From Acidobacteriota bacterium (GTDB lineage: Bacteria; Acidobacteriota; Vicinamibacteria; Vicinamibacterales; 2-12-FULL-66-21), in contig JACPDI010000023.1 of the NCBI GenBank assembly GCA_016184105.1, positions 1 through 64,000 on the forward strand: a stretch of DNA of 64,000 nt, in the 5' to 3' direction. Made by a program: the position numbers and the translations under genes. This document shows positions 10,617-47,146 of the stretch, piece by piece; the first letter of the stretch is position 1; each line of letters starts with the position of its first letter. Below the pieces are notes generated by a model. The model made no database searches, was not told the origin of the DNA, and was given only the letters and a program-made list of their open reading frames with translations.

Positions 10617-10639
10617 GCGCCGGCCTTTAGGCCGGCGCC
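10616..10639. terminator. Bidirectional hairpin between convergent genes
   Basis: Near-perfect palindrome with core GGCCTTTAGGCC and arms of about 11 bp (GGCGCCGGCCT / AGGCCGGCGCC). It overlaps the stop codons of the hybrid kinase (+) and the hydroxyacyl-CoA dehydrogenase (-). It probably ends transcription from both sides, though it lacks a T tract. Confidence 0.55.
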
Positions 10640-11490: not shown

Positions 11491-11515
11491 GAGGAATTCG
11501 CCCGGACTGTCACCA

Positions 11516-11603
11516 CAACGACCACCAAGGTCACGAAGCAGGGCACCGGAAATCGCCGTTCCCTTGTGCCCAGCGTTTGTGATCTTGGCGGTCTTCGTGG
11601 TTG
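11516..11603. repeat. Imperfect long inverted repeat between thiolase and hbd
   Basis: The left arm (CAACGACCACCAAGGTCACG, 11516-11535) is matched by an imperfect reverse complement ending in TTCGTGGTTG near 11603, with further pairing inside (CAGGGCAC against GTGCCC). The layout resembles bacterial interspersed mosaic (REP-type) elements. It fills most of the gap between the two fatty-acid genes and could also terminate or attenuate between them. Confidence 0.5.
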
Positions 11604-11607
11604 ACGT

Positions 11608-12789: not shown

Positions 12790-12791
12790 AT

Positions 12792-12823
12792 CAGGGTTCA
12801 AGGTTCAGGTTCAGGGTTCAGGA
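12792..12823. repeat. Short CCTGAAC repeat upstream of the thiolase start
   Basis: On the minus strand the 30 bases before the thiolase ATG are about four copies of CCTGAAC or CCTTGAAC. The same core occurs in the larger 14-bp array at 53433-53558. Confidence 0.7.
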
Positions 12824-12833
12824 GCACGTGTAG

Positions 12834-12856
12834 ACGCCGGCCTCCTAGGCCGGCGT
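12834..12856. terminator. Hairpin at the end of the DUF721 gene
   Basis: A 10-bp stem (ACGCCGGCCT / AGGCCGGCGT) with a 3-base loop, overlapping the stop codon of the DciA-like gene. It shares the GGCCT/AGGCC core with the hairpins at 7425 and 10616 and probably ends transcription of the DciA-like gene before the thiolase. Confidence 0.5.
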
Positions 12857-13141
12857 GATCTCCAAACACAGTCCCGGGACGCCAAGCAGTGCGTTCAGCC
12901 GGTCGGTGAGCACCGGGAGGCTGCGTTCAATCTCGGCGGCCCACCGTACGTCTTTAGGACGCACGCGGATGGTGCAGGGCGCCTCGAAAGCCGCGTCGGC
13001 CGCGCGCGCGAGCTGCGGCCCCGCCGCCATCTGCCAGGCGAGGCTGACCTTGCCGGGCGAGAGTGGTTGGCGGCGGATGACCTCCGACAGTACGGACGCA
13101 GCGAACTGGGGCACCGGCGTCAACTTTCTGCTGCGACGCAT
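12845..13141 (-). CDS. DUF721/DciA-like protein
   Basis: A 98-aa basic protein (MRRSRKLTPVPQF...) with the DUF721 pattern: an N-terminal helix (AASVLSEVIRR), the LSPGKVSLAWQMAAGPQLA region and a beta-hairpin (CTIRVRPKDVRWAAEIERS) followed by a final helix. DciA, the best-studied member, loads the replicative helicase DnaB in bacteria without DnaC. Assignment to helicase loading is by family only. The gene is divergent from maf, with a 22-bp gap between the two start codons. Confidence 0.75.
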   Translation of the reverse strand: MRRSRKLTPVPQFAASVLSEVIRRQPLSPGKVSLAWQMAAGPQLARAADAAFEAPCTIRVRPKDVRWAAEIERSLPVLTDRLNALLGVPGLCLEITPA

Positions 13142-13163
13142 CCATTCAGTCTACACTCGCGTG

Positions 13164-13721
13164 ATGCTCGTGCTCGCTTCGGCCTCCCCCAGGCGCGCGG
13201 ATTTGCTGCGCGCCGCCGGCATCCCGTTCACGGTCGAGACCCCCGACATCGACGAATGGCCGCTGGCGAACGAACCGCCCGAGTCCTACGTCCTCCGGGT
13301 CGCCCGCGATAAGGCCCTGGCGGTGGCCCGCCGGAAATCCGGCAGTCCCGTGCTCGGGGCGGACACCACGGTGGTCGTGGACGGCGGGATCCTTGGGAAA
13401 CCTTCGGACGACGCGGAGGCCCGAACCATGCTGCAACGCCTGTCAGGACGCGTCCACGACGTGCTGACGGGGGTGGCGCTCGAGGTTGGGGGCGGCGAGT
13501 GGACGGCGCTCGAAATCACCAGGGTACGCTTCTTGCCCCTGAGCGCAGGCGAAATCGACTGGTACATTGCATCCGGTGAGCCACGCGGGAAAGCCGGTGC
13601 CTACGCCATTCAGGGCCTGGCGTCGCGCTTCGTGGACAGGGTCGAAGGATCGTACACGAATGTGGTCGGGCTGCCTGTGCCGGCCGTGTGCGGGCTCCTG
13701 CGGCAGGCCCGGGTGCTGTAA
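13164..13721 (+). CDS. maf: Maf-family nucleotide pyrophosphatase
   Basis: House-cleaning dTTP/UTP or modified-nucleotide pyrophosphatase. The 185-aa protein starts MLVLASASPRRADLL, with the phosphate-binding SASPRR motif at residues 6-11. It continues with ADTTVVVDGGILGKP, GRVHDVLTGVAL and the family C-terminus KAGAYAIQGLASRFVDRVEGSYTNVVGLP. The ATG at 13164 follows a -10-like TACACT by only a few bases, so the message may be leaderless. Confidence 0.93.
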   Translation: MLVLASASPRRADLLRAAGIPFTVETPDIDEWPLANEPPESYVLRVARDKALAVARRKSGSPVLGADTTVVVDGGILGKPSDDAEARTMLQRLSGRVHDVLTGVALEVGGGEWTALEITRVRFLPLSAGEIDWYIASGEPRGKAGAYAIQGLASRFVDRVEGSYTNVVGLPVPAVCGLLRQARVL

Positions 13722-13754
13722 AATGGCCGGATACGCCGGCAGCGACAAGTCCTT

Positions 13755-14150
13755 ATGAAGCAAAGAGCTATCAAGATCGCTCTGACCACCCTCGTCCTCG
13801 TGGGCGCCTTCAGTGGCCTGCTGTACTCCACGCTCCGGGACGGCACCGAATACTACAAGCACGTCGAGGAGGTGTCGGGCGAGCCTTCCCGTTGGTACGG
13901 GAAGAAGCTGCAGCTGCACGGCTTCGTCGTGGACAAGTCGATCCTGCGCAGGCGGGACTCGCTCGACTACCGCTTCAAGATTCAGAGCAACGGCTCGGTG
14001 ATCGATGCGCGGTACACCGGCGTCGTGCCCGACACGTTCAAGGACGGCTCGGAGGTCGTGCTCAAGGGCACGCTCGGGCCCGACGGCTTCGACGTGGCGC
14101 CGAACGGCGTGATGGCGAAGTGCCCGTCGAAGTATGAGCCTGGAAAATAG
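13755..14150 (+). CDS. ccmE: Cytochrome c maturation heme chaperone CcmE (CXXXY variant)
   Basis: Periplasmic heme chaperone of System I: an N-terminal membrane anchor (about residues 6-26), then an OB-fold (LQLHGFVVDKSIL, DYRFKIQSNG, VVPDTFKDGSEVVLKGTL). The classical heme-binding HXXXY near the C-terminus reads CPSKY here, that is CXXXY, the variant described from Desulfovibrio and archaea in which cysteine replaces the heme-binding histidine. It heads a nine-gene ccm operon and is followed by ccmF after three bases. Confidence 0.93.
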   Translation: MKQRAIKIALTTLVLVGAFSGLLYSTLRDGTEYYKHVEEVSGEPSRWYGKKLQLHGFVVDKSILRRRDSLDYRFKIQSNGSVIDARYTGVVPDTFKDGSEVVLKGTLGPDGFDVAPNGVMAKCPSKYEPGK

Positions 14151-14153
14151 CTG

Positions 14154-16649
14154 ATGCCATCCCTCGGCACCTTCGTCCTGCTCGCCGCGTTCGTCATGGG
14201 TGCGTATGCCGCGGCCGCATCGGTCGTGGGGGCGCGCCGCCGCTCGCGCCGGTTGATTGAAAGCGGCCTCGGCGCGTTCTACTTGGTGACTGCGCTGATG
14301 GTGCTGGCCTCCGGCATCATCGTGCATGCGTTTGTGACGAACAACTACGCGATCAAGTACGTGCAGCGCTACTCGGACATGGCGCAGCCGCTGGCGTACA
14401 AGCTCGCATCGTACTGGGGAGGGCTCGACGGATCGATTCTGTTCTGGGTCTTTCTGCTGTCGGTGTTCGGCGCGATCGCGGTCCACTCGAACCGCGAGCG
14501 CCAGCGGGAGCTGATCCCGTACGTCGTGGCCACGATCGCCATCGTGGAGATGTTCTTCCTCTTCCTGATGGTGATCCACAACAACCCGTTCGAGACGTAC
14601 TTGACCGAGACGCACGCCGACGGCGCCGGGCTGAACCCGCTGCTGCAGAACTTCTACGTGGCGTTCCACCCGCCGGCGCTGTACATCGGGTTTGTCGGCA
14701 TGACGATCCCGTTCGCGTTCGGGATGGCGGCTCTGATCACCGGCTACCTGGATGACTCCTGGCTGCGGGCCGTCCGCCGCTGGACGATGATCAGCTGGTT
14801 CGCGCTGTCGTTCGGCCTGGTGCTCGGGATGCTGTGGGCCTACGAGGAGCTGGGCTGGGGCGGGTACTGGGGCTGGGATCCGGTCGAGAACGCCGGGCTG
14901 CTGCCCTGGTTCACCGCGACGGCGTTCCTGCACTCGGTGATGGTGCAGGAGCGGCGCGGCATGTTGCGGGTGTGGAACGTCTCGCTCGTGATCGTGACCT
15001 TCTTCCTCACGATCTTCGGCACGTTCATGACGCGTTCCGGCGTCGTGCAGTCGGTGCACGCCTTCGGCGAGGACCGCGAGCTGGCGCTGATGTTCACGGT
15101 CTTCATGGTGCTGATGCTCGGGGTGAGCTTCGGCTACGTGATTCATCGTCTCCCGCTGCTCAAGTCGCGCCACGAGCTGGACTCGTGGGTGTCGAAGGAA
15201 GCGGCGTTCCTCGCCAACAACTGGGTCCTGCTCTTCTCCGCGTTCTTCGTCCTGTTCGCGACGATGTTCCCCACGATCAGCGAGGCGCTGATGAACCAGC
15301 GTCTCACCGTGGGGCCGCCGTTCTTCAACAAGTGGATGGCGCCGATCGGCCTGATCCTCCTGATCCTCACCGGCGTGGGCCCGCTCCTCGCGTGGCGCAA
15401 GTCGACGGTGCGCAACCTGCGCGAGCAGTTCCTGTGGCCCGTCGTCTCGGCGATCGTCGTTGGCGGGGCGGTCGTGGCGCTCGGCGTGCGGGTCTGGAGC
15501 TCGGGGCTCTGCTTCGCGCTGAGCGCGTTCGTCTTCGGCACGATCGCGCAGGAGTTCTGGCGCGGCGCGCGGGTGCGCCAGGGAGGAACGGGCACCGACG
15601 TCCTCACCGCGCTCGTCGGACTGGTCGCCCGCTCGCGCCGGCGCTACGGCGGCTACGTCATTCATCTCGGCATCGTGCTGATGTTCCTCGGCTTTGCCGG
15701 CGAAGGCTTCAAGACCGAGGAACAGGTGCTGATGAAGCCGGGCCAGCAGACGACCCTGCGCGGCTACACCGTTCGCTACGACGGCATCCGCATCACCGAC
15801 GACGGGCAGAAGCAGATGGTGACGGGGCACGTCACGCTGTTTCGCGATGGGAAACAGGTCGGCGCGATGGAGCCCGGACGGCACTTCTTCCGCAAGCGCG
15901 AAGAGGAGCCGACCACGGAAGTGGCGATACGTCGCGGCGTCGCCGAGGACGTGTACGTCGTCCTCGCGGGGTACGACATGCAGACGCAGTCGGCGACGCT
16001 GATGCTCGTCGTGAACCCGCTGGTGAACTGGATCTGGTTCGGCTTCGCCGTCATGGCGATGGGCACCGGCATCGCGCTCCTGCCGGAGAGCACGTTCGCG
16101 TTCGCCGCCGCGCGCGCGCCGGCCGGCACCGTCACCGCCACGCTGCTGCTGCTCTCGCTGCTGCTCTGGCCGGCGGCGCTCGCCGCCGCCGAGCCGCAGC
16201 ACGTGGAGACGCCGCAGTCCGCCGCGGTCGAAGTGGCGCGCACGCCGGTCGAGAAGGAGCTGTGGCGCGAGCTGGTGTGCATGTGCGGCACGTGCGGCCG
16301 CAAGAAGATTGGCGACTTCTGCTGCGGCTACGCCGCCCAGATGCGTGCCGAGGTGAGGACGCTGCTCGACCAGGGAAGGACGAAAGATCAGATCTTTGCT
16401 TACTACATCGAGAAGTACGGCAGCCAGGAGCCGCTCGCGGCGCCGATCGACGAGGGCTTCAACCGGCTCGCCTGGCTCCTGCCGTACGTGTTTGGCGCGG
16501 CAGGGCTGGGCCTCATCGTGACCATGGCCATGCGCTGGTCGCGGAAGCCCGCGAGCGCGGCCGCAGACGACGGGGCGACCGAGGCGCGCGTCGAGGCCGA
16601 CCAATCCCTGAGCACAAGGCTGGACGATGAACTCCGAGATCTCGACTAG
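14154..16649 (+). CDS. ccmF: CcmF-CcmH fusion, heme lyase of cytochrome c maturation
   Basis: An 831-aa polytopic membrane protein. Residues 1 to about 660 are CcmF, the heme lyase, with the WWD signature WGGYWGWDPVENAGLLPW (about 233-250) and many membrane helices. After a further helix (about 665-680), the C-terminal 140 residues are a CcmH domain with the redox motif CMCGTC (Cys709, 711, 714), a following DFCCGY, the helical bundle, and a last membrane helix. CcmF and CcmH form one complex in the usual System I, so the fusion is functionally sensible. The classical CcmH motif is LRCxxC; the extra cysteines here are unusual. The start is an ATG at 14154. Confidence 0.93.
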   Translation: MPSLGTFVLLAAFVMGAYAAAASVVGARRRSRRLIESGLGAFYLVTALMVLASGIIVHAFVTNNYAIKYVQRYSDMAQPLAYKLASYWGGLDGSILFWVFLLSVFGAIAVHSNRERQRELIPYVVATIAIVEMFFLFLMVIHNNPFETYLTETHADGAGLNPLLQNFYVAFHPPALYIGFVGMTIPFAFGMAALITGYLDDSWLRAVRRWTMISWFALSFGLVLGMLWAYEELGWGGYWGWDPVENAGLLPWFTATAFLHSVMVQERRGMLRVWNVSLVIVTFFLTIFGTFMTRSGVVQSVHAFGEDRELALMFTVFMVLMLGVSFGYVIHRLPLLKSRHELDSWVSKEAAFLANNWVLLFSAFFVLFATMFPTISEALMNQRLTVGPPFFNKWMAPIGLILLILTGVGPLLAWRKSTVRNLREQFLWPVVSAIVVGGAVVALGVRVWSSGLCFALSAFVFGTIAQEFWRGARVRQGGTGTDVLTALVGLVARSRRRYGGYVIHLGIVLMFLGFAGEGFKTEEQVLMKPGQQTTLRGYTVRYDGIRITDDGQKQMVTGHVTLFRDGKQVGAMEPGRHFFRKREEEPTTEVAIRRGVAEDVYVVLAGYDMQTQSATLMLVVNPLVNWIWFGFAVMAMGTGIALLPESTFAFAAARAPAGTVTATLLLLSLLLWPAALAAAEPQHVETPQSAAVEVARTPVEKELWRELVCMCGTCGRKKIGDFCCGYAAQMRAEVRTLLDQGRTKDQIFAYYIEKYGSQEPLAAPIDEGFNRLAWLLPYVFGAAGLGLIVTMAMRWSRKPASAAADDGATEARVEADQSLSTRLDDELRDLD

Positions 16650-33259: not shown

Positions 33260-34021
33260 ATGCCTGAGCGGATGCTCGTGGTTCCCGCCGCCGGCCGCGG
33301 CACGCGCCTGAACTCGGCCCTGCCGAAGGCGCTGGTACCGGTGGCGGGCCGTCCCATGCTCGATCACCTCTTTGCGCTGTACCGGCCCTACGTTGGGCGC
33401 TTCGTTATCGTCGTGAACCCCGAATCCGAGCAGGCGGTTCGCGAGCACTGCGCGCGTGTCCAGCCTGGCGCCGTCGACTTCGCGGTCCAGGCCGTCCCCA
33501 CGGGCATGCTGGATGCGATCCTGCTCGCATCGGGTGCCGTGCGCGCGGCGAACGCGGAGACGATCTGGATCACGTGGGCGGATCAGGTGGCGGTGCGCGA
33601 CGAGACGGTGGCGGCGCTCGCGCGGACGTCGGACCGGCCGGGCGTGGCCCTTGCTCTGCCGACCTTGCATCGCGCGCATCCCTACACGCTGCTCGAGCGC
33701 GACGAGACCGGCAGGATCGTTCGCGTGCGGTACAGGCGGGAACACGACCCGATGCCGGCGGCGGGGGAGAGCGAGATGGGGGTGTTCAGCCTGTCCCGCG
33801 ACGCCTATCTGGAGGACCTGCCGCGGTTCGCGGCGGAACGCGCCGTCGAGGCGGGCGCTGCGACGGGCGAGCGGAATTTCCTGCCGTTCATTCCCTGGCT
33901 GGCCGCGCGGCGTGCGATCGTGACGTTTCCCGCCACCGAAGATATCGAGGCCGTCGGCGTCAACACGCCCGACGAGCTTGCGATGATTGAAGAGGCCCTG
34001 CGCCGGCGGCCGCCGGCCTGA
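33260..34021 (+). CDS. Sugar-phosphate nucleotidyltransferase-like protein
   Basis: A 253-aa GT-A fold protein with the nucleotide-binding signature PAAGRGTRLNSALPKALVPV (G-x-G-T-R...PK) and the metal-binding ITWADQVAVRD. Similar to glucose-1-phosphate uridylyl/thymidylyl and MobA-like transferases. It would activate a sugar phosphate for the cluster. ATG at 33260 is preceded by GAGAGG; an upstream GTG at 33215 overlaps the previous stop (GTGA) and could add 15 residues. Confidence 0.8.
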   Translation: MPERMLVVPAAGRGTRLNSALPKALVPVAGRPMLDHLFALYRPYVGRFVIVVNPESEQAVREHCARVQPGAVDFAVQAVPTGMLDAILLASGAVRAANAETIWITWADQVAVRDETVAALARTSDRPGVALALPTLHRAHPYTLLERDETGRIVRVRYRREHDPMPAAGESEMGVFSLSRDAYLEDLPRFAAERAVEAGAATGERNFLPFIPWLAARRAIVTFPATEDIEAVGVNTPDELAMIEEALRRRPPA

Positions 34022-34022
34022 T

Positions 34023-35963
34023 TCAGTGAACGGCGAAGACGCGCACTTCGAGATTGCTGAACACCGGCGTGAAGAACTCGGGATGCAGCTCGAACTTCTC
34101 GATCCCTGAGGGATAGAGCGCCCGCTCCACGCGATCGGCGTAGATGTATTCGATGCCCAGCCGCGCCGCAATCCGGCGCGCCTCTCCGGCATCGGCGGTC
34201 TCGTACATCTCCTGCACCTCGCGGGAGCGCTCGTTGTAGGCGGGCACCTTCAGGAGGGAGATCGGCAGGCCCGCGGCCATCCGGCGCTCGGCAAAGCTGG
34301 GTATCAGGCTCCACGTCTCGCGTCCCCGGCTGATGGGCTCCATCTGGACGATGGCTCCAGCGGGCGTCGCGCGCTTGAGCCACCGGAACGCCTCCTGCTC
34401 GTCAGGGGTCAGGTCGATCGTCCAGCGAAATCCGCCGATGCTGCGCTCGTAGTTGGCCGTGTCGCGCGCGTTGTACCAGTCGATCGCCGTTGTGGGAAGG
34501 CCCGCAATCGCCGCGGCCGCGATCACCGCCGCCGTGACGCCCGCGACACGTCCGCGGTCGAACAGCCCCATCGCCGCGCGCGCCATCAGCATGGCCGCCA
34601 CGCAGATCAGGATGTGTCCCGCACGGAAGCCGATGTAGGCCGTGTCCACGTCGAGGCTCACGAAGTGCATCAGCGCGAGCGAGAGCGGGATCATCACAAG
34701 GGCAGGTGTCGCGGCGGCAAGCGGCGCCTGCCCTCGCGGACCGATGAGGCCGGCGAGGGCGACCGCCAGGACGGGCCCAAGCGACACGGCAAGGCTCGCA
34801 ATCGGCGCGTTCGCCGCAAGTCCGTGGAGCCCGAACGTCAGCGCGTGGGAGGCGCCTTCCAGCATGTGGTTGCCCGCGCACCACGCGATGGCGGCCAGCA
34901 CGGGCAGCGCCGCGAACGCGTGGAGTGGGACGCGCCGGACCGTGCCAGTCCTGACGGCATCCACGATCACCGTGCCGGCGTAGCCCAGGGAAAACATCCC
35001 ACCGGCGAGAGGGTTGCAGAGGACCGACGCGCCCAGCGCAACGCCGCCGGCGAGAATCGCGGATATCGGCGCCACCGCTCCGCCGGCCGCGCCGATGACG
35101 AGCGCGAGAACGCCCGCGGCGTACGCCATCGTGTGCTGCGGGACGTACCACAGCGCCCGCTGCAGACCGTCGATGCGCAGCCCCTGGAACCGCCAGTTCG
35201 CGATCGCGTCGATGTTGGTGTGCCGCAGGTACCACAGCGGGACATCGCGGCGCCAGAGCCGCCACATCTCGTACAGGCCCTCGGCACTGCTCGCCACGAT
35301 CGCCAGCGCAACGGCGATCCCCGCGGCGGCGGGGCGCGCCGCCGCGACGCGCGCCAGCAAGTACAGGACGGCGCAGAACAGCAGGCCGGTGGCGATCGCG
35401 TTGCCTTTCAGAGATGCTTCGATCGATCGCAGCGGCGCCGGGCCGCGCCCGGCGACCGCCGCAGGGACGATGAAATAGCCCCAGTAGTAATGAATGGGCT
35501 CCCGCGCGAGATATGGATTGCGCAGCGGCATCTGGAACTTGCCGACCTCCGCGGTGAGCGCCATGTGCCACACGAAGTCGGCGGTGAAATAGGCGCGATA
35601 CAGGCGCGCGCCGTTCGGCTGCTGCTGGCCGACGCGCGCGAAGGGGGGTACGGCCACGGCCAGCGTCAGCGCGCACACGAGGGTGAGCGCGATCGTGTCG
35701 CCCCGCGTCCACGCGAAGATCGGCAGCGGCCGGACCACACGTGCGGCGATCCAGCCCGCCGCCAGCGTGACGGCCCATGCGGCCAGAAACCCCGGCCTGG
35801 ATGCCGCGCCCACGGCGATCGTCGCCCAGAGACCTATCGTGCTGAAGGCATAGCCCAGGATGGCCCCGCCCACGTACGCGGCCGGATGACGCGGGCCGAA
35901 GAGCGCTCGGCCAAGGGGGATTCCCGGCAAGGCGGCAGCGGCGAAGGGAAGCGCGTACAGCAC
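34023..35963 (-). CDS. Large polytopic membrane protein, GT-C-like (paralogue A)
   Basis: A 646-aa protein with about fourteen helices. It has an external loop YRAYFTADFVWHMALTAEVG and the motif HYYWGYFIVPAAV. A soluble C-terminal tail (about 530-646) is rich in conserved residues (AIVQMEPISRGRETWSLIPS). It is clearly paralogous to the protein at 41725-43767, sharing YRAYFTADFVWH, NYYW/HYYW and the whole tail. Start GTG at 35963. Sugar and acceptor are unknown. The convergent nucleotidyltransferase ends one base away. Confidence 0.7.
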   Translation of the reverse strand: MLYALPFAAAALPGIPLGRALFGPRHPAAYVGGAILGYAFSTIGLWATIAVGAASRPGFLAAWAVTLAAGWIAARVVRPLPIFAWTRGDTIALTLVCALTLAVAVPPFARVGQQQPNGARLYRAYFTADFVWHMALTAEVGKFQMPLRNPYLAREPIHYYWGYFIVPAAVAGRGPAPLRSIEASLKGNAIATGLLFCAVLYLLARVAAARPAAAGIAVALAIVASSAEGLYEMWRLWRRDVPLWYLRHTNIDAIANWRFQGLRIDGLQRALWYVPQHTMAYAAGVLALVIGAAGGAVAPISAILAGGVALGASVLCNPLAGGMFSLGYAGTVIVDAVRTGTVRRVPLHAFAALPVLAAIAWCAGNHMLEGASHALTFGLHGLAANAPIASLAVSLGPVLAVALAGLIGPRGQAPLAAATPALVMIPLSLALMHFVSLDVDTAYIGFRAGHILICVAAMLMARAAMGLFDRGRVAGVTAAVIAAAAIAGLPTTAIDWYNARDTANYERSIGGFRWTIDLTPDEQEAFRWLKRATPAGAIVQMEPISRGRETWSLIPSFAERRMAAGLPISLLKVPAYNERSREVQEMYETADAGEARRIAARLGIEYIYADRVERALYPSGIEKFELHPEFFTPVFSNLEVRVFAVH

Positions 35964-35972
35964 GGCGAGGAT

Positions 35973-36929
35973 CTATTTCGGCCGGCCGGGCGAGGCGGCG
36001 CCCGCGCTGGTGGCGTAAAGTAACCCGCCGGGCAGGTTCCCGACAACACCCAATGCGACGAAGAGCACGGACAGCGCGAAGGCAGCCGGCTGGGGAACGC
36101 CGGCCTGACCGAAGAACCAGACGAACGCGAGCTGGCTCGTGCCGAGGCCGTTGATTGTAATCGGCAGCAGCATGATCAGCAGAATCAGCGGCACGAACGC
36201 GGCATAGACAGAGAAGGGTGCCGCGATGTCGAGCGCGCGGCCGAGGCAATAGGCCTGGACGATCCGAAGCAGTTGCACCCCCGCGGACCCGGCCAGCACG
36301 TTGGCGAGACCGCCGCGATGGCGCGCGTAGCGGCGGGTGGCATCCACCAGGGATTCAGCGGCATGCCGGACGCGCGCGCCGGGCAGCCGGCGCGCGGCGT
36401 GCCGCGCGAGGCCGGCCGCCCGCTCGCTGAAGACGACCAGCGCGCCCGCCGCGCACACGGCGAGCGAGACCGCCAGCGTGGCGGCCACGCCCCGGTCGGC
36501 GAAACGGGCCCCGGCAAGCGCAAGGCCCGCCACACCTACGATCGCGATCGAGGCGACCCCGAGCACCCGATCGATCGCGACCGATGCCGCCGACTGTGCG
36601 GCGTCCACGCCGTAGCACGAGAGGCTGTACGCGCGCACCACGTCGCCGCCGACGCTGGGGAGGAACGTGCCGACGAAGGTGCTCACGAAGAACACGCGCA
36701 GCACGGCGGCGAGCGGCGGCCGCTGCCGCGGCTCGACAGCGCGCAACAGCACCAGCCAGCGATACGCCATCAGGGCGCGATCGAACAGGACGAGACCGGC
36801 CGCCGCGGCGATCCAGGCCAGGTTGGCGCCGCGCGCCGCGGCGAGCACCGCAGCGGGGTTCGCGCGCCAGAGGAGGAAGAGAAACAGGCCGGCCGCGACG
36901 AGAATCCGCGCGAGCCGGCCTGCAGTCAA
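35973..36929 (-). CDS. AglD/LPG-synthase-type transmembrane protein (flippase-like) A
   Basis: About 318 aa with eight membrane helices and the family motifs FVGTFLPSVGGDVVRAY and ITINGLGTSQLAFVWF. This domain (lysylphosphatidylglycerol synthase TM/AglD-like) is found in lipid flippases and in proteins handling polyprenyl-linked sugars. The start is taken as TTG at 36929, six bases after the previous stop. A paralogue lies at 48532-49509. Confidence 0.8.
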   Translation of the reverse strand: MTAGRLARILVAAGLFLFLLWRANPAAVLAAARGANLAWIAAAAGLVLFDRALMAYRWLVLLRAVEPRQRPPLAAVLRVFFVSTFVGTFLPSVGGDVVRAYSLSCYGVDAAQSAASVAIDRVLGVASIAIVGVAGLALAGARFADRGVAATLAVSLAVCAAGALVVFSERAAGLARHAARRLPGARVRHAAESLVDATRRYARHRGGLANVLAGSAGVQLLRIVQAYCLGRALDIAAPFSVYAAFVPLILLIMLLPITINGLGTSQLAFVWFFGQAGVPQPAAFALSVLFVALGVVGNLPGGLLYATSAGAASPGRPK

Positions 36930-36934
36930 AGCGG

Positions 36935-37959
36935 CTACTGGGCGTTGAGCGCGCTGCCGAGCGAGATCGGCCGCGGGTTTGGACCGATGTACACGCGGCT
37001 GACGCGCATGTCGCGCATGGTGTCGTTGTACAGCGACCCGATGACGATGGTCTGGCTGGCCGGGTTGTAGCTCCCCGGGTAGGTCGTGCTCAGATCGACC
37101 TTCGTGGCCCCGGCTTCCGACGTGCCCTCGAAGATCCGCAGGCGGGCGTTCCCGCCGCGCCACTCCAGTCGAACCGCACCGCGCCGCTGTCCCAGAAGCG
37201 GTCGACGAGGACGCGATGCTGGTTGCCGGCGAGATTGCTCGATCCCGTGCCGTCCTGCATCAGCAGGATCTTCGACTGCCCCGCGAAGCTCGAGTCGCCG
37301 GTGGGCTTGATCCGAATCGCGACGAAGGACACCTCGCCTTCCGGCAGCGCGGAGATCCGATACCCGAGATAGCTGTCCGAGTCGTCCAGTTTCAACCCGG
37401 GGCTCTGGTCGTCGAGGACAAAGAACACCTTGCTCTGCATGTCGGCGACCGTTCGGCCGTTCGTGAGGATATCGAACACCTGGTTGCCGCTCTTGAAGCT
37501 GTCGATCTTCGTCTTGAAGCGCGACGCGGCGGACCAGGCACCCACGCTCGCGCCCTGGATGGCGCGCGCGCGCCAATAGTACCGGGTGGACGGCTGCAGG
37601 TCGGTCGGCACGCTCACCGAGGTCTGGCCGCTGGATCCTTCGGGCACGCCGGACTGCGTGAACGCGACGGCAAAGCTCGCCAGCCGGCCGGGTATCAGCG
37701 CGAAGCCGGAATTGTCGGCCACCTGGAACTCGTAGGTGCGCGACCCCGCGCCCGACGACACGTTGTTGACGGTGAGGGTCGGCCGCAGCGTATCGAGCTG
37801 CGCGTCGTCCGACGGTGAGACGAGGGTCGGCGCGGGGAGCGCGGTGCCATCGGGCGCCGTCGGGCTGACCGGCACTTCGCGGGAGCCCCCGGACCCGGAG
37901 CAGGCGGCGGCGATCGCGCACGCGCCGATGAAGGGAATCAGGACAGAGTGCTTAACCAC
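36935..37959 (-). pseudogene. FN3-type lipoprotein with lectin-like C-terminus, one-base frameshift
   Basis: N-terminal lipoprotein signal with lipid Cys20 (IGACAIAAAC) and the motif PVSPT ten residues later. A fibronectin-III-like domain (about 42-150, YYWRARAIQG) is followed by a domain starting NQVFDILTNGRTVADMQ. The first frame leaves homology near 37165 after AVRFDW. The other frame resumes with RGGNARLRIFEGTSEAGATK and runs to the stop at 36935. Adding one G to the GG run at 37165-37166 restores a single frame (DWEWRGGN). The closest relative is the intact gene at 45023-46138, which ends in the same manner (RVYIGPNPRP against NVWISSRPRP). Confidence 0.7.
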
Positions 37960-39003: not shown

Positions 39004-41019
39004 ATGGTCGCGGTGTCTCCCGCACAACCCCAGCGCTCGCACCTGCGCGTCGTGCTGTTCTCAGGCGGCCGCGGGTCGGGCGCGCTGACCGAGCAGCTTG
39101 TCACCAACCCCCGCATCGCGTTGACCGTTGCCATCAACGGGTACGATGACGGGGCATCGACAGGCGAGGTGCGCCGCTTCCTCGGAGACGCGCTGGGGCC
39201 GTCCGATTTCCGCAAGAACGCGGCTCATCTCACGCGGCTGCTCGGCACCCGGCCCGTGGAACTCGTCCAACTGCTGGATCTGCGCGTCGACATGGACGGC
39301 GACGTCCGCACGGCGGGGGAGCGCCTGATCGCGGCGATCGACGGTCAGGCCGCGCCTGCCGACGGCCCGCTGGCATCTGCGGCACGGCTCGCCGGCGCGC
39401 TGCCGGTGTCGCTTCGCGGTGCCGTCCTCGAGCGGCTGCGGCCGTTCAGCCGCGAGCTGCAGGCCGGCCGCCCGTTTCGCTTCTGCGATTGCGCGCTCGG
39501 CAACGTCGTGTTCGCAGGTTCGTTCCTCCTCTGCGCGCGTGACTTCAACAGGGCGGTCGACGACTACTGCTGCGGGCTGATGGCGCTTCCCGGCGGCCTG
39601 ATCGAGAACGTCACCGACGGCAGGAACGCCTTCCTGGTCGGAGTAGACTCCGACGGACGGCTGCTGCGCAGCGAGGAGGAGATTGTCGACGCCAAGCGCC
39701 GCAACCGGGTCGAGGACATCCACCTCCTCGACGTCGCGGTCAGCGAAGAGATGCGCGCCCGGCTTGCGGCCGACGGCCGGCCGGCGCAGGACCGCTTTCT
39801 CCGGGAGCACTCCGCGGACCGGTCCGTGCGGTTGAACCCGCGCCTCGAACCGGCCTTGGCCGACGCCGATCTGATCGTGTACGCGCCCGGCACGCAGCAC
39901 TCGAGCCTGTTTCCGTCCTACCTGACTCCGGGGTTGAGCGGCGCGATCGCGCGAAACCTGCCGGCGATCAAGCTGCTGGTGACCAACATCGAGACCGACG
40001 CGGAGATCACGGGCCAGAGCGCCGTCGACATCATCGACCGCGCGGTGTTCTATTTGAAGGAAAAAGGGCGGCTGACGATCCCGACGCCATGCCTGATCAC
40101 GCACTACCTGGTCAACGATCCCCGCGGCGGCGGCCCTGAGCGGCCGTACGTTCCGCTGGGCCGCCTCGAGTCGCTCGAGGACCCGCGCCTGGTGCGCGTC
40201 GGCAATTATGAAGAAGGGATCACCGGCAGGCATGACGCCGCCAAGATCCTCGGGCCGTTCGTGGAGGCGTTTCTGGCCCGCTGGAACGACACGCAGAAGG
40301 TTGCGGTGCTCTTTTACGAGGCCCGGACCGCGAACAAGCTTGTGCAGAGCCTCCTCGAGATGATCCGCGCCGGCGTGCGCGACCTTCCCTTGGCACTGAC
40401 CGTCTTTCACGACGCGCCGGAACCGCTCGACGAGCCATTCGCGCAGTCGCTCGGGTTCGCCGTACGGCGTCTCGAGGGGGATGAATCGCAGCGCGACCGG
40501 GCCTTCCGCAAGGCGCTCGCCGACGAGCATTTCGATTACGTCATCCTGTTCGAATCCTCGGGCATGTACAACGGCGAGGATGTCAGGACGCTGGCGTCCT
40601 ATCTGAGCATGGGACGCCTTGACTCGGTGTGGGGCAGCCGCCGCCTGTCAGTGCGCGACATCGAAGAATCCTACCGCCTGAAATACCGGCGCCGCGCCGT
40701 GGCCGGCGCGGTGTCGTACCTCGGCAGCCACGCGCTGAGCCTGATGTATCTGGGCTTGTACGGTCGCTACGTGTCGGACACGCTCTCGGCGGCGCGCGCG
40801 GTGCGCGCCTCAGACGCGCTCGCCGTGCCGGTGCCGCTCACCCACAAACAGGCGAACCAGCACCTGCTGCCGATCCTGCTCGGGCGGAAGGCCGAGATGT
40901 TCGAGGTGCCCGTGCAGTTTTTCTCGATCTCTCCCGACCAGGTCCGGCGGACGACGGCCGTCGACGGCCTCCGCGCCGTCGGCACCGTCGTGCGCGCGCG
41001 TTTTCGCGGCCGGGCATGA
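39004..41019 (+). CDS. CofD/YvcK-family domain fused to a degenerate GT2-like domain
   Basis: A 671-aa protein. Residues about 14-420 are a CofD/YvcK Rossmann-type domain with [12 protein letters not shown] (19-30), [61 protein letters not shown] and [17 protein letters not shown]. YvcK binds UDP-GlcNAc and CofD makes the F420 precursor; no other F420 gene is seen. Residues about 430-671 align with the GT2 enzyme encoded just downstream ([34 protein letters not shown]), but the metal motif DAD is ILFESSG here, so catalysis is unlikely. The gene overlaps the GT2 gene (ATGA), suggesting a regulator or partner of that enzyme. Confidence 0.85.
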
Positions 41020-41714
41020 CACGCCGCACGCTCTCCATCGTCATTCCCGCGTATAACGAGGAGCGCTTCATCGGGACGCTCCTGGACCGGATCCGTGCGG
41101 TGGATCTCGAGCCGCTCGGCGTCGGCAGGGAAATCATCGTCATTGACGATCACTCGAGCGATCGGACGCCGGAGATCGTCGCGGCGGTGCCGGGCGTGAC
41201 GTTGAAGCGGCTGGAGCGGAACGTCGGGAAGGGACGCGCCGTCCGGGAAGGGATCGCGATCGCGAGCGGCGACCTGCTCATCATTCAGGATGCCGACCTC
41301 GAATACGACCCGCGGGATTACGTCCCCATGCTCCGCGCGCTGCTGGAGCGGCGTGGCGACATCGTGTACGGCAGCCGCTATCTCGCCGGCGGCCGGCATG
41401 CCGGCCAGTCGCTCGCCGCCTACCTCGGCGGCCGCAGCCTGAGCCTCGTCGCCCGGCTCTTCACCGGGACCTACCTGTCGGACACGGTGACCGCGCTGAA
41501 GCTGTTTCCGCGCCAGGAACTGGCGTCACTTACGCTGACGACCAGCGGGTTCGAGCTGGATCACGAGATCACGGCGAAGATGCTGGCGCGGGGGCTGAAG
41601 ATCGTGGAAGTTCCCATTTCGTATTTTCCGCGTTCGCGGGCGGAGGGGAAGAAGATCGGCGTGCGCGACTGGTTCACCGGCGCCCGAACGTTCTTCCGGT
41701 TCAGGAACGGCTGA
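41016..41714 (+). CDS. GT2 dolichyl-phosphate-mannose-synthase-like glycosyltransferase
   Basis: A 232-aa soluble GT-A enzyme with [24 protein letters not shown] and the intact DxD motif QDADLEYDP (DAD 92-94), then YGSRYLAGG and a C-terminal [20 protein letters not shown] typical of DPM1-like enzymes without membrane helices. Makes a polyprenyl-phosphate sugar. Its start overlaps the CofD-GT fusion gene, whose C-terminal half is its degenerate paralogue. Confidence 0.9.
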
Positions 41715-41724
41715 TCGCCGGGAG

Positions 41725-43767
41725 TCAGCGAACCCGGTAGATCCGCACTTCGGCGTTCGAGAAGACGCGATCGAAGTAGCGGCGCTCCTCGAACTTGGGC
41801 ATCCCGGCCGGGTACGCCGCCATCTCCGCGGAATCCACATACACGTAATCGATGCCGAATCGCTTGGCGATCGTCCACGCGGCCCGCGGCTCCGCGGTGA
41901 TGTACATCTGCTGCACGATCCCGGACCGCTCGGTGTATTGCGGCTGGGGCAGCAGCGAGATCGGCAGGCCCGCCGCCATCCGCCGGCCGGCAAACGACGG
42001 AATGAGCGTCCAGTGCTCCCGCCCGCGCACGATCGGCTCCATCTGCACGATGGCGTCCGGCGCCGTGTGCGCGCGAATCCACGCGAACGCCTCCTGTTGC
42101 GCGGCGGTCGTCCAGAGCGTCCAGCGGAACCCGGGGCCCGGCCGGCGATTGTGAATGTCCTGCGCGTTGTACGTGTCGATGAGTGTCGTGGGCAGACCGG
42201 CAACCAGAATAATGGCGACGAGGGCGTTGCACGCCAGCACGGGAACGCGATCGAGCACGCGCGCCAGCAGGATCGGGATCGAGACGAGCAGGATCTGCCC
42301 GGCGCGGAAGCCGACCCACGACGCTTCGGAGATCGTGACGAAGTAGAGAAGACCCAGACCGACCGCCAGGCCGGCAGCCGCCGCGGCGACCGGCCGCCAC
42401 GGCCAGCCGCGACCGGGCCAGAGGCCTCCCAGCGCGGGGAGGAGGATCGGGCCAAGGGAGACAAGCAGCGTTTGTACCGGTCGCTGACGCGCGTAGCCGG
42501 AGAACCCGATCGTGACCGCCGCCGCCGCACCATCCGTCATCCTGGACAGCATGCCCCAGGCCACTGCGGCGGCCACGGGAGCAGCGGCCAGCACGTGCCG
42601 GATCAGCGGCCGCGCGCCGGTTCGGGAGGCGACGGTATCGACGGCGATGACGACGCCGTAGATCGCCGAGAACGCCGCGCCGAGAAACGGGTTCATCGCG
42701 GTCGCCAGCCCGAGCGCGCAACCGGCGCCCAGAGCGCCGCGCGGGCTGAGGGCTGACCCTTGCGCGATCGCGGGCAGCAGACCCAGGAGCCCGAGGCCGA
42801 CCGCCGTGGTGTGCTGGGGCGTGTACCACATCGACCGCGGCATGTTGTCGATGCGCAACCCGCTCCATTGCCACGCCGTCACGGCGTCGATGTTCATCTC
42901 CCGCAGCAGGTCGAATGGCAGACCGCGGCGGTAGAAATCGATGAGCGTGTGCGTGCCTTCGTAACTCGCAGCGACCGCCGCAAGCAGGACGGCAAGTGCG
43001 GCCGCGCCGGCGCGCCGCGTCGCAGTGCGGACCACGACGAACAGCGCCGCGAGCATCGCGGCGGCGTGAAGGATGGCATTCGTCTTGAGGCACACTTCGA
43101 CGTCACCGAGCGGCGCCGGCGCGGTTTCGGCCACCGTCGCCGGCAGCAGGAAGTACGTCCAGTAGTAGTTCATGGTCCGCGGCGCCATGTATGGATTGCG
43201 CGGCGGCAGCGTGAACCTGCCCAGCTCGTAGGCGAGCGCAGAGTGCCAGACGAAGTCGGCGGTGAAGTACGCGCGATAGTAGCGATTGCCTTCCGCGTCG
43301 GCGCGGCCCAGGTTCCGGTAGGGGGGTGCCATCAGCGCCGGAACGATCAGAAGCACGAGAAACAGCGCGCGCGTGTCCGGACGTGTCCAGGACGGGAGCG
43401 TGACGGCGGGCGCATTCCGGCGTCGCCGATGCAGTCGCCAGCTGAGACAGGCGAGTAACGCCCAGGCGAGCACGAACATCGGCCCGCTGGCCACGCGTGC
43501 GGCGATGGCTGCCCACAGCGCGAGCTGCAGCACGCCGTAGCCGAAAAGCATCCCGGCTATCCAACCGGCGGCGTGGCGTCGCCCGAACAGCGCGAACCCA
43601 GCCGGGAGGCCCGGCGCGACCGCGAGCGCGTACACGCCTGCGTACAGCACGCCGCCGATGCCGGCAGCCCACCACACCGCCAGCAGCAGCGAAAGACCGA
43701 AAAGAAACGCGGAGAGAATTGCCGATCCGGCGCCGGGGGGCCTGGGGCTGCGGCCGTCGGAACTCAC
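41725..43767 (-). CDS. Large polytopic membrane protein, GT-C-like (paralogue B)
   Basis: A 680-aa protein starting at GTG 43767, which overlaps the radical SAM gene stop (GTGA). About fourteen helices, the loop YYRAYFTADFVWHSALAYEL, MNYYWTYFLLPATVAE, and a soluble C-terminal tail (AIVQMEPIVRGREHWTLIPS...DRVFSNAEVRIYRVR). Paralogue of the protein at 34023-35963. Likely a membrane glycosyltransferase; no biochemical assignment is possible. Confidence 0.72.
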   Translation of the reverse strand: MSSDGRSPRPPGAGSAILSAFLFGLSLLLAVWWAAGIGGVLYAGVYALAVAPGLPAGFALFGRRHAAGWIAGMLFGYGVLQLALWAAIAARVASGPMFVLAWALLACLSWRLHRRRRNAPAVTLPSWTRPDTRALFLVLLIVPALMAPPYRNLGRADAEGNRYYRAYFTADFVWHSALAYELGRFTLPPRNPYMAPRTMNYYWTYFLLPATVAETAPAPLGDVEVCLKTNAILHAAAMLAALFVVVRTATRRAGAAALAVLLAAVAASYEGTHTLIDFYRRGLPFDLLREMNIDAVTAWQWSGLRIDNMPRSMWYTPQHTTAVGLGLLGLLPAIAQGSALSPRGALGAGCALGLATAMNPFLGAAFSAIYGVVIAVDTVASRTGARPLIRHVLAAAPVAAAVAWGMLSRMTDGAAAAVTIGFSGYARQRPVQTLLVSLGPILLPALGGLWPGRGWPWRPVAAAAAGLAVGLGLLYFVTISEASWVGFRAGQILLVSIPILLARVLDRVPVLACNALVAIILVAGLPTTLIDTYNAQDIHNRRPGPGFRWTLWTTAAQQEAFAWIRAHTAPDAIVQMEPIVRGREHWTLIPSFAGRRMAAGLPISLLPQPQYTERSGIVQQMYITAEPRAAWTIAKRFGIDYVYVDSAEMAAYPAGMPKFEERRYFDRVFSNAEVRIYRVR

Positions 43768-44927
43768 GCGGTCGGGGCGGGCAGGGTCGACGCGTGCTTG
43801 TCCGGTGCGCGCTTGACCTGGTACGCGCGCTTCAGGAACTTCGCATACGGGATGAACTGCTTCATCGCGCCGACGTTGACCTGGCACGGGCTCAGGCACG
43901 TGCCGCACACCTTCGCCTTCAGCTCCTCGCGCCCGGCGAGGTGCGCGCTGTCGAAGTACAGCGTCTCGGCGGGCGTGTCGAGGACGTTCCCGAGCCTCGC
44001 GGAATTCTCGCAGTAGAACAGATCGCCGTTGGGATTGAGCAGCAGCCCCTGGCGCTGGAACGGACACGGCATCGTGCGCTTGTAGCCGTTGGCGATCATG
44101 TCCGCGTAGTGCATGTACATGAACGTCTGTCCGGAGAGGACCGACTCCTCCTGGACGCGATCCAGGAAGAACTTCCGCATGTACTCCTCTTCGCGCGTGC
44201 GGAAGCCGATCTTTTCCTCCAGCTCCTTGTTGTGGAGCATCGCGTCGGTGAACCGCAGCATGTTGAACACGATGTCCAGCTTGCGGGAGCGGGCCCATGC
44301 GAGGATGTTTTCGGCGTCCTCCAGGTTGGTCGCGAAAATCGTGGACGCGATGCCGAACTGGAAGTTGTCGTGCCGTTCCGCGAGCGCCTGCATCGCGTCG
44401 ATCGTCTGCGAGGCCTTGTCGAAACCGCGCTTCACGTTGCGAACCTGGTTGTGCAGGTCCCCCACGCCGTCGATCGAGACCCGGATGCTGATCGGGAGCC
44501 CCTTGTCCGCGCAGAACTCGACGATGCGCGTGAGCATCGGGATCGCGCGGGACGGCGTCAGTCCGGTCGTGTTGATGCCGACCTTGCGCATCCGCGGCAG
44601 CCGGCGGTGGAACATTTCCACCATCTCCGGCAGATCGTTCCGCGTGGTCGGTTCTCCGCCGGAAATGTTCAGGTTCTCGACCGCGCCCCAGAACGGGTGC
44701 TCGAAGACGGGCCCGAGCTGGGGGAGCGTCATGTCGCTCTTGCGGTCGCCGAACTTCCAGTTGCTGCACATCTCGCAGCGCGCATCGCAAACCCAGGTGC
44801 AGTTGTAGATGAGCACCGTCGGGCGGATGGCTTTCAGGCTGGTCGCGATGAAGGTATTGACCAGGTCGCGCGGGACGCCCGCGGCCGTCTTGGCGAGGTA
44901 CTGCAGCCGGAACGTGTTGGTGGCCAT
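43764..44927 (-). CDS. Radical SAM/SPASM enzyme
   Basis: A 387-aa protein with a radical SAM cluster motif CDARCEMC (Cys47, 51, 54; CxxxCxxC), the glycine-rich NISGGEPTTRNDL and SIRVSIDG. C-terminal SPASM/twitch cysteines are in CPFQRQ, YCENS and CGTCLSPCQ, which would bind further iron-sulfur clusters. Such proteins modify peptides or small molecules. Here the enzyme is coupled to a GT-C gene, so a lipid, sugar or lipoprotein target is possible. Start ATG at 44927; an in-frame GTG nine bases earlier is an alternative. Confidence 0.88.
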   Translation of the reverse strand: MATNTFRLQYLAKTAAGVPRDLVNTFIATSLKAIRPTVLIYNCTWVCDARCEMCSNWKFGDRKSDMTLPQLGPVFEHPFWGAVENLNISGGEPTTRNDLPEMVEMFHRRLPRMRKVGINTTGLTPSRAIPMLTRIVEFCADKGLPISIRVSIDGVGDLHNQVRNVKRGFDKASQTIDAMQALAERHDNFQFGIASTIFATNLEDAENILAWARSRKLDIVFNMLRFTDAMLHNKELEEKIGFRTREEEYMRKFFLDRVQEESVLSGQTFMYMHYADMIANGYKRTMPCPFQRQGLLLNPNGDLFYCENSARLGNVLDTPAETLYFDSAHLAGREELKAKVCGTCLSPCQVNVGAMKQFIPYAKFLKRAYQVKRAPDKHASTLPAPTA

Positions 44928-44967
44928 GCGAGTGACGCCTATCGTAACACGCTGAGCCTGAAACAGA

Positions 44968-44996
44968 ACGGGGCGCCGGCGAGACCGGCGCCCCGT
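44968..44996 (-). terminator. Strong hairpin after the FN3/lectin lipoprotein gene
   Basis: A perfect 12-bp stem (ACGGGGCGCCGG / CCGGCGCCCCGT) with a 5-base loop, followed on the minus strand by a T-rich stretch (TTCTGTTTC). It separates the lipoprotein gene from the radical SAM gene. Confidence 0.7.
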
Positions 44997-45022
44997 GGGA
45001 GTTGAGCCTCGTGCGGCCGGCG

Positions 45023-46138
45023 CTAGAACCGGGGCCGCGGTCGCGAGGAGATCCAGACGTTGCGCACCGTCATCTGCGGATGCGACGCGTTCAGCTCGCC
45101 GGCCCGCGTCAGGGGCGCTCCGATATGCGCGACGTGCGGATTCGAGCCGTCGGCGCCCGGCCTGTACGGGCGGCTGCCCGTCGAGATCGACCCTTCGTCG
45201 TGCAGGGGGCCATCCGGACCGTCCAGCCGGATTTCGTATCCGGCAGATCCCAGCCGCCACCACATCCGGAAGAAGTACGTCTGCTGCCGCGACCAGGTTT
45301 TCACGCGGCGCGGCACGTCGAAGATGCGCCCTTCATCGTTTGCGTCGCCCGTGATGATGCGGTAGGACACGGTACCCGGCGTGCCGCCGTAGTCGCGCCC
45401 GCGGACTTCGAGCGTCTGCCGGTAATCGTTGTTGGTGACGTCGCCGTAGCCCTCGGCCATGGACATCACCTTGGACTTGTCGCCCTGGTTTCCTTCGTCG
45501 ACCCCCTGCGCCACGAACGAGTACTCGCCTTCCTGCAGCGTCGCGCCGAGCGTATAGGTAATGCGGCTCATGTTGGTTTCGATGAACGCGCCCTGGCCCG
45601 GAACGAACGTGACGCCGACGGCATCGCCGACGGTCTTTCCGTTGGTCAGCGGATCCATCACCTCGCTGCCGCGGATGTAGCCCCCTTCCGGCGTCTTGAA
45701 CGACGCGGTCGCGGACCACGGGCCGGCCGCGCCGAGGTACTCCGCCCGGGCACGCCACGTGTGCACCTTGTTGAACTCGAGCGCGCCGCCGACCGCGTGC
45801 TGCGTCCGGCCGCTGCCCGCGGGCACGAGCGGGGAGGTGTAGACCTTGGCGTTCTGGTCGTTGAAGACTTCGAAGCGATACGACAGCGGAACCGAGGCGA
45901 ACTTCGCTTCGGCGTTCCCGACCGTCAGGACGACGTCGCCCTCCACCTGCGTTCCGCCAGTCGGGGATTGGATCGAGGGAGCGGTCGCTTTCAGCGTGGA
46001 GCCGTCGGCGTTCGCGGAGTTGTCCACGACATCAGCCGTCGTGGTGGGGGAAACAGGCGTCGGTGCCTCCTTCCCGCAGCCGACTGCTACGGAAAGGACG
46101 CAGGCCAGACCGGAGGCAAGCAGATACTTTCGGGACAT
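45023..46138 (-). CDS. FN3-type lipoprotein with lectin-like C-terminal domain
   Basis: A 371-aa predicted lipoprotein: signal with lipid Cys21 (LSVAVGC), PVSPT at residues 28-32, a fibronectin-III-like domain (about 50-150, VHTWRARAEYLG) and a C-terminal beta-rich domain (SEVMDPLTNGKTVGDA ... QQTYFFRMWWRLG ... TVRNVWISSRPRPRF) suggesting a concanavalin/laminin-G fold. It is the intact relative of the frameshifted gene at 36935-37959. ATG at 46138 with GGAG 11 bases upstream. A glycan-binding role at the cell surface is inference. Confidence 0.72.
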   Translation of the reverse strand: MSRKYLLASGLACVLSVAVGCGKEAPTPVSPTTTADVVDNSANADGSTLKATAPSIQSPTGGTQVEGDVVLTVGNAEAKFASVPLSYRFEVFNDQNAKVYTSPLVPAGSGRTQHAVGGALEFNKVHTWRARAEYLGAAGPWSATASFKTPEGGYIRGSEVMDPLTNGKTVGDAVGVTFVPGQGAFIETNMSRITYTLGATLQEGEYSFVAQGVDEGNQGDKSKVMSMAEGYGDVTNNDYRQTLEVRGRDYGGTPGTVSYRIITGDANDEGRIFDVPRRVKTWSRQQTYFFRMWWRLGSAGYEIRLDGPDGPLHDEGSISTGSRPYRPGADGSNPHVAHIGAPLTRAGELNASHPQMTVRNVWISSRPRPRF

Positions 46139-46303
46139 GCTCAGTTGTTCTCCACCTGAGGAAAAGCGGTTCGTTCTCGATCGACCAACTGGGGGTTCCA
46201 CGTATGATACCTGAACTTTCGCCGCGCCGAACCGCGAAATCACGGGAATGCGTGATAACATGGCGCGTTCTTTCCCTGACACACATCGATCACGAGGAGA
46301 TAG

Positions 46304-47146
46304 ATGCGGATCACGAGCCCAATCGCACTGGCCGTCGGCCTGACCATGTTTATCGGCATCTCCGCTTCCGGGCAGACGCCCCCGTCCACCGAGCCGCCGC
46401 CGCCGTCCCCCACGCCGCAAATCGAACTGGCACCGCCGGCCACGACACGGCCTCGGCAGCCGGCGCCGGACACACCGCCCGCCAAGCCGCGGTTCTTCGT
46501 CAGCGTCAACGGCGGCTACCAGATCATCAACCAGGACATCGCGACCGAAACGACGTTCGAGGCGTTCGAGGAAACGGCGACGCTCAGCTCAGCCGGTGAA
46601 CTCAAGAGCAAACCCGTCTTTGACGCCAGCCTCGCGTATCAGTTCAGCAATCGCTACGGCGTCGGCGCGGCCTTCTCGTTCTACACGACCGAGGATAACG
46701 TCGCGGTGCTCGCGCGCGTGCCGCATCCGGTCTTCTTCGACCAGGTCCGCGTCGCGAGCTTCGAGGCGTCCGGCGTGAAGCACACCTCGGGAGCGCTTCA
46801 CCTCAACGGCATCTGGTTCGTGCCGTTCACCAGAAAAATCGACTTCCAGGTGTTCGCCGGGCCGTCGATCGTCTTCGTGAAGCAGGACGTGGTGACCGGG
46901 GCCAACCTGCTGTCCGAGAACCCTCCGTTCACCGAGCCGCGAATCGACAAGATCACGGTCACCGAGCAGAGGAAGACGACGGTCGGTTTCAACGCCGGCG
47001 TTGACGCCGCTTACGCCATCACGCCGCGCATCGGCGTCGGTGCCACCGCCAGGTACCTGTTTGCCTCTGCCGACGTGGACGGATTGGTGGATTCGGTGAA
47101 CGTGGGCGGCCTGCAGGTCCTCGGCGGAGTGCGATTCCGCTTCTGA
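46304..47146 (+). CDS. Outer-membrane beta-barrel protein with proline-rich N-terminus
   Basis: A 280-aa protein. Signal peptide (to about residue 23), a proline-rich spacer (about 25-62) that could cross the periplasm, then alternating strands (FFVSVNGGYQIIN, KPVFDASLAYQFSNRYGVG, GALHLNGIWFVPF, RIGVGATARYLFASADVDG) ending in LQVLGGVRFRF with a terminal Phe. ATG at 46304 has GAGGAG six bases upstream. It is divergent from the FN3/lectin lipoprotein gene; the 165-bp gap between them probably holds both promoters, but none was clear. Confidence 0.75.
   Translation: MRITSPIALAVGLTMFIGISASGQTPPSTEPPPPSPTPQIELAPPATTRPRQPAPDTPPAKPRFFVSVNGGYQIINQDIATETTFEAFEETATLSSAGELKSKPVFDASLAYQFSNRYGVGAAFSFYTTEDNVAVLARVPHPVFFDQVRVASFEASGVKHTSGALHLNGIWFVPFTRKIDFQVFAGPSIVFVKQDVVTGANLLSENPPFTEPRIDKITVTEQRKTTVGFNAGVDAAYAITPRIGVGATARYLFASADVDGLVDSVNVGGLQVLGGVRFRF

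Follow-up and report, generated by a model that had tools for sequence, protein, structure and literature searches.

What does a protein do that joins a domain of the CofD/YvcK type to a glycosyltransferase domain whose metal-binding motif has been lost? The question is raised by a gene in the first 64,000 nucleotides of the Acidobacteriota contig JACPDI010000023.1 (the window), in which the fusion is followed directly by an active-type GT2 glycosyltransferase gene, GT2a. An earlier note, made from the letters alone, had read the fusion as a nucleotide-sugar-sensing regulator or scaffold of this paralogue. The YvcK/GlmR proteins themselves have been argued variously to be UDP-sugar binders, regulators of GlmS and enzymes. 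Our tentative answer, to which we give a little less than an even chance, is that the CofD part of the fusion works as an enzyme of the CofD type and is tethered to a GT2 module without catalytic function (the pseudo-GT2), in a pathway that puts a nucleotide-activated sugar on a polyprenyl-phosphate carrier.

The CofD/YvcK motifs reported in the N-terminal part are present, and Pfam CofD matches residues 16-370 with 51.8 bits (cut-off 30). An AlphaFold2 (AF2) model of the fusion alone, built from 57 alignment rows, is confident (pLDDT 89.6, pTM 0.80); its first domain best matches B. halodurans YvcK (2hzb; Z 32.6, 298 residues, 2.6 Å), followed by FbiA and CofD with Z about 20 (FbiA 20.2). The last ~244 residues have no match in a Pfam search; they align over 242 residues with the GT2a product (24% identity, E-value 8e-12), much as the earlier note had it, and the second domain of the model resembles dolichyl-phosphate mannose synthase (PfDPMS, Z 16.7), ArnC (16.5) and GtrB (14.3). 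As modelled, the C terminus adopts the GT-A fold seen in polyprenyl-phosphate glycosyltransferases, and a different fold there, which would have refuted the earlier note, was not seen; the best solved relative of GT2a is a dolichyl-phosphate mannose synthase (5mlz, E-value 2e-22).

In PfDPMS the sequence DADLQH provides Asp91 and Gln93, which bind the metal, and Asp89, which contacts the sugar, while the lipid phosphate is bound by Arg117 with Ser135 and Arg131 (PMC5526996). When these positions are mapped onto the fusion through the companion GT2, Asp89, Asp91 and Gln93 are found to be replaced by Glu517, Ser519 and Met521, and both metal ligands are lost, as the change from DAD to ESS had suggested; Arg546, within a GSR motif, corresponds to Arg117. 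This arginine, Asp592 and Glu634 are kept in all 48 C-terminal domains compared, none of which has a DxD in place or shifted, and a motif intact at another position in homologues, which would have undone the earlier claim of loss, was not seen. The claim needs narrowing in one respect, since the sister subfamilies (PSD and TGD forms; 18 domains) have Pro, Thr or Ser for the first Asp of DxD and retain the third, Asp519, in every case, with Glu or Gln at residue 521 in 16. Within the ESS clade (Acidobacteriota, Gammaproteobacteria and Myxococcota) Ser519 is present in 30 of 30 domains and Met521 in 29. On a tree of CofD domains the ESS group is set apart by a branch with support 100/99; the tree is rooted with YvcK on a long branch that leaves the root unsure, and with this root Asp519 looks ancestral, and its loss derived and clade-specific.

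The pseudo-GT2 domain looks constrained in a new, fixed role and not in decay: Ser519 is fixed throughout the ESS clade, and dN/dS is 0.10 for the pseudo-GT2 against 0.15 for the CofD domain in one close pair, a sign of purifying selection there, other full-length pairs being saturated. A decaying pseudogene domain is therefore unlikely. When the GT domains are placed on a tree, they fall into five single groups, namely the C-terminal domains of the ESS, TGD and PSD forms, GT2a, and GT2b; ESS and PSD forms are paired with GT2a enzymes, which have DAD, and TGD forms with GT2b enzymes, nearly all of which have DSD or DAD. The pseudo-GT2 has the GT-A fold, the GSR motif and the equivalents of D592 and E634 in common with DPMS, ArnC and GtrB, but differs from them in the absence of DxD and donor motifs, in having no predicted transmembrane part and in being joined to CofD. 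It clearly exemplifies how a glycosyltransferase domain can lose metal binding once and then be fixed in the new state.

At the other end of the protein, all 57 sequences compared, stand-alone CofD proteins included, share D48, D68, N167, N328 and D332, and 50 of them keep D49. A family-profile alignment to solved YvcK proteins (E-value 2.5e-25) places YDDGxSTG on DDGGSSG and LGPSDFRKN on PPPGDVR. In FbiA the catalytic metal is bound by Asp45 and Asp57, and the acceptor hydroxyl attacks the β-phosphate of the nucleotide donor (PMC7253369); D48 and D68 fit these ligands by motif order only. Listeria GlmR is a uridyltransferase, of which a D40A/D41A/N198A mutant is impaired (PMC10128056), and its D40 and D41 are kept as D48 and D49. 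By analogy with these proteins we favour an enzyme over a pure sensor, because the putative metal-ligand residues are kept, because of the linkage to nucleotidyltransferase and HAD genes described below, and because the domain also occurs without a GT2 domain or GT2 neighbour.

Homologues of the fusion in related genomes are 53-62% identical, and it was found in 19 of the 193 genomes of its class. A scan of named genomes gave 80 further loci with a fusion or CofD-like gene, in Acidobacteriota (where Vicinamibacteria-type genomes hold the nearest relatives of the window), Gammaproteobacteria, Myxococcota, Melainabacteria, Verrucomicrobiota, Bacteroidota, Pelagibacteraceae, Bdellovibrionota, Nitrospinota, Actinomycetota and Bacillota. 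This recurrence in many genomes rules out a sequencing or frame artefact. The gene is split into two overlapping frames only in two metagenome-assembled genomes, by frameshift or assembly error (G006/L059, L059:1093-3007, and L066:5169-7057). Across the 81 loci, window included, a MobA/GlmU-like nucleotidyltransferase lies within 8 kb in 74, a GT2 match is nearby in 71, and a HAD hydrolase lies within 3 kb in 54, mostly with its start within 60 bp of where the CofD gene ends. The HAD protein is nearest to β-phosphoglucomutase-type families, with scores below their cut-offs. Seven loci lack the nucleotidyltransferase: four of them stop close to the edge of a contig, and three come from clostridia and have CofD and HAD genes side by side. 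The fusion and GT2a overlap by ATGA (41016-41019), as had been seen before, and the two-domain architecture recurs widely; in most relatives, however, a HAD hydrolase or nucleotidyltransferase gene, and not one for a GT2, comes next after the fusion. In the window itself the nucleotidyltransferase gene stands ~5 kb upstream.

Some of these genes are also joined in nature. Nucleotidyltransferase, CofD and GT2 form one chain in Bacteriovorax (L074) and Nitrospina (L096), and a single open reading frame (ORF) for 1332 residues at L049:9592-13590 encodes, in frame, CofD, pseudo-GT2 and a GT-C membrane protein; the family of the latter flanks the window gene twice (34023-35963 and 41725-43650). These two paralogues have no Pfam family, and the model of the first matches oligosaccharyltransferase (Z 18.1), Pmt4 (16.3) and ArnT (15.8). 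The GT-C class uses lipid-linked sugars. CofD proteins of actinobacteria, clostridia and SAR86 have no C-terminal GT2 domain. In clostridia and Lachnospiraceae (L085, L098 and L112, around 9947-15443) the stand-alone CofD-like and HAD genes have no GT2 neighbour and are accompanied by very long upstream ORFs; the locus read in detail, L085, is a polyketide synthase (PKS) cluster with ketosynthase, ketoreductase, HMG-CoA-synthase-like, enoyl-CoA hydratase and Rgt-like GT1 genes.

Taken together as a scheme, the HAD protein, where present, would ready a sugar phosphate, which the MobA/GlmU-like enzyme would convert to a nucleotide-diphosphate donor; the CofD domain would, with the help of a metal, carry out phosphoryl or nucleotidyl chemistry on this donor, in the manner of CofD/FbiA and GlmR; the active GT2, with its DAD, would form a polyprenyl-phosphate sugar; and the GT-C enzymes would use it across the membrane. 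The pseudo-GT2 has lost donor and metal binding but retains the Arg by which PfDPMS grips the lipid phosphate, and its most likely role is therefore docking, of the lipid carrier, of the active GT2 or GT-C partner, or of both. Computation supports the domains, the folds, the motif loss with its clade, the gene set and the fusions; the reaction, the substrate, lipid binding and complex formation are inferred from them. Several points weigh against this reading. R131 and S135 of PfDPMS have no clear counterpart in the fusion, and the pseudo-GT2 is not needed everywhere, as the actinobacterial members lack it. In the CofD domain D49 is Asn in 7 of the 57 sequences, and the correspondence to FbiA is not a residue-level structural alignment. 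The fusion seems to have Ser305 where GlmR has N198, and it has Arg23 at the position of Thr14, which binds UDP-GlcNAc, so that the known GlmR activity is not directly transferable. Finally, there is no HAD hydrolase beside the fusion in the window, and the best matches in its own genome (24-27% identity) include no clear orthologue.

Spelled out, the idea of a regulator or scaffold in the earlier note would mean that a nucleotide sugar is detected by the CofD domain, much as UDP-GlcNAc is bound by B. subtilis YvcK/GlmR, and that the pseudo-GT2, as a heteromer with GT2a, switches this enzyme on or off. YvcK, the closest fold, binds UDP-sugars (PMC5482804), the type of pseudo-GT2 follows that of its GT2 partner, and the two genes overlap in the window; yet the putative catalytic residues of the CofD domain are kept, the genetic link to HAD and nucleotidyltransferase genes is tighter than that to GT2, and the PKS clusters have CofD and HAD without any GT2. 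We therefore think a regulatory function of this kind rather unlikely, and a pure regulator of the paralogue less likely than an enzyme; the scaffold or docking part of the proposal is plausible and survives, whereas the sensor is less supported in view of the invariant D48 and D68, the gene linkage and the GT2-free members. Were the CofD domain an accessory nucleotidyltransferase, making a nucleotide sugar from sugar-1-phosphate and nucleoside triphosphate like Listeria GlmR, with the pseudo-GT2 serving only to anchor it to a membrane or complex, the conservation of D48 and D49 would be accounted for, and also the clostridial PKS loci, where CofD and HAD stand beside GT1 and no nucleotidyltransferase was found. 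Most loci already have a dedicated nucleotidyltransferase, though, and the Ser in place of N198 does not fit, which makes this distinctly improbable.

The boldest alternative gives the CofD domain a phosphoglycosyl-type reaction, by analogy with CofD/FbiA: sugar phosphate would pass from a nucleotide sugar to polyprenyl phosphate or a polyprenyl-linked acceptor, either of them held on the pseudo-GT2, with release of nucleoside monophosphate. The attack on the β-phosphate in FbiA, the retention of matching metal ligands and of the lipid-phosphate Arg, and the natural chains with a nucleotidyltransferase or a GT-C protein are all consistent with it. The acceptor, on the other hand, is purely conjectural, actinobacterial and clostridial members have no lipid-binding domain, and a new initiator is not demanded in a genome that has four Bac_transf proteins and one Glycos_transf_4 elsewhere; an absence of other initiating transferases was accordingly dropped as support, these five being present. 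We regard such a reaction as very improbable. It is an equally long shot that the gene set as a whole makes up a pathway not recognised so far, where a soluble CofD-fold phosphoglycosyl transferase is fed by the adjacent nucleotidyltransferase and the pseudo-GT2 has evolved into a holder of the lipid carrier; if true, this enzyme would add a third structural class to the phosphoglycosyl transferases.

The curated families nearest to the fusion are YvcK, F420 CofD and GAK CofD-like. Compared with YvcK/GlmR (UPF0052; 2hzb, 2o2z), the fusion has the fold and the DDGxS(T/S)G, P(S/G)DxR and PG(T/S)xxxS motifs in common; identity is about 18-24%, T14 and N198 are replaced, a pseudo-GT2 is added, and the NCBIfam YvcK model TIGR01826 gives 41.5 bits against a cut-off of 196. 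It is not the housekeeping YvcK, since its own genome holds a separate canonical CofD/YvcK gene (318.8 bits). That gene (contig C31; L001:626-1429 and 1210-2538) directly follows an NTP-transferase-like ORF of different sequence, with overlapping frames. CofD/FbiA, the F420 2-phospho-L-lactate or phosphoenolpyruvate transferases, share the fold and the Pfam family, but are only 11-14% identical and lack the C-terminal domain; the equivalog TIGR01819 (F420 CofD) is absent among the matches of the fusion at E-values up to 1, and no F420 genes were seen in the window. CofD works with CofC, and the fusion likewise usually has an NTP-transferase gene nearby. The GAK-system CofD-like model TIGR04357 is the best or near-best NCBIfam match for several family members, which nevertheless fall outside it (51.6-111 bits against a cut-off of 340, the fusion at 51.6). 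We file the fusion as a CofD/YvcK-fold protein of a probable lipid-linked sugar pathway, missed by the cut-offs of all three nearest families. The gene set of sugar transferase, CofD-like protein, HAD hydrolase and nucleotidyltransferase, in about ten bacterial phyla, is probably undescribed and probably builds a lipid-linked sugar. The earlier note knew of no system with this design, and literature searches on CofD-like, GAK and glycosyltransferase fusions or pseudo-GT2 systems, which did not reach most subscription journals, gave no description either. Such a set would mark an undescribed glycan or glycolipid pathway in many phyla, with Pelagibacteraceae, Legionellaceae and actinomycetes that produce antibiotics among the carriers. 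A YvcK relative tied genetically to a nucleotidyltransferase, a HAD hydrolase and a glycosyltransferase, at times in one polypeptide, also connects this fold to nucleotide-sugar chemistry and provides testable partners.

Table 1. The fusion gene, its motifs and neighbouring genes in the window
Feature	Position	Strand	Basis or remark
CofD-like/pseudo-GT2 fusion protein, 671 aa	39004..41019	+	open ORF, Pfam, AF2 model
CofD/YvcK-fold domain, residues ~15-428	39046..40287	+	Pfam CofD; YvcK Z 32.6, FbiA Z 20.2
DDG motif with putative metal ligand D48	39145-39153	+	within CofD domain
GPSD motif with putative metal ligand D68	39196-39207	+	within CofD domain
Pseudo-GT2 domain, residues 429-671	40288..41016	+	alignment to companion GT2, fold match
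ESS replacing DxD	40552-40560	+	pseudo-GT2 domain
GSR, lipid-phosphate Arg equivalent	40633-40641	+	pseudo-GT2 domain
Active-type GT2 (GT2a), DAD intact	41016..41714	+	ATGA overlap with fusion
MobA/GlmU-like nucleotidyltransferase (NTP_transf_3)	33260..34021	+	~5 kb upstream of fusion
GT-C fold membrane glycosyltransferase	34023..35963	-	AF2 pLDDT 82.6; structure matches
Another GT-C fold paralogue; start codon uncertain	41725..43650	-	46% identical to 34023-35963
LPG_synthase_TM membrane protein	35973..37163	-	Pfam; near fusion in relatives too
Radical SAM protein	43764..45005	-	conserved near fusion in relatives

The wider surroundings of the fusion in the window form a polysaccharide region, where GT4s, methyltransferases and an epimerase are encoded; PADLOC gave no match, and membership of a defence system is not supported. 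In Streptosporangiaceae the GT2-CofD-HAD-nucleotidyltransferase set is immediately preceded by the gene of a conserved hydrophobic protein of ~270 residues, with no Pfam match (L075:8410-9222 and 17 other actinobacterial loci). Two related proteins of the window, encoded at 37090-37959 (-) and 45023-46420 (-), have counterparts close to the fusion in relatives (cluster c15), and the former has weak Ig/fn3-like matches.
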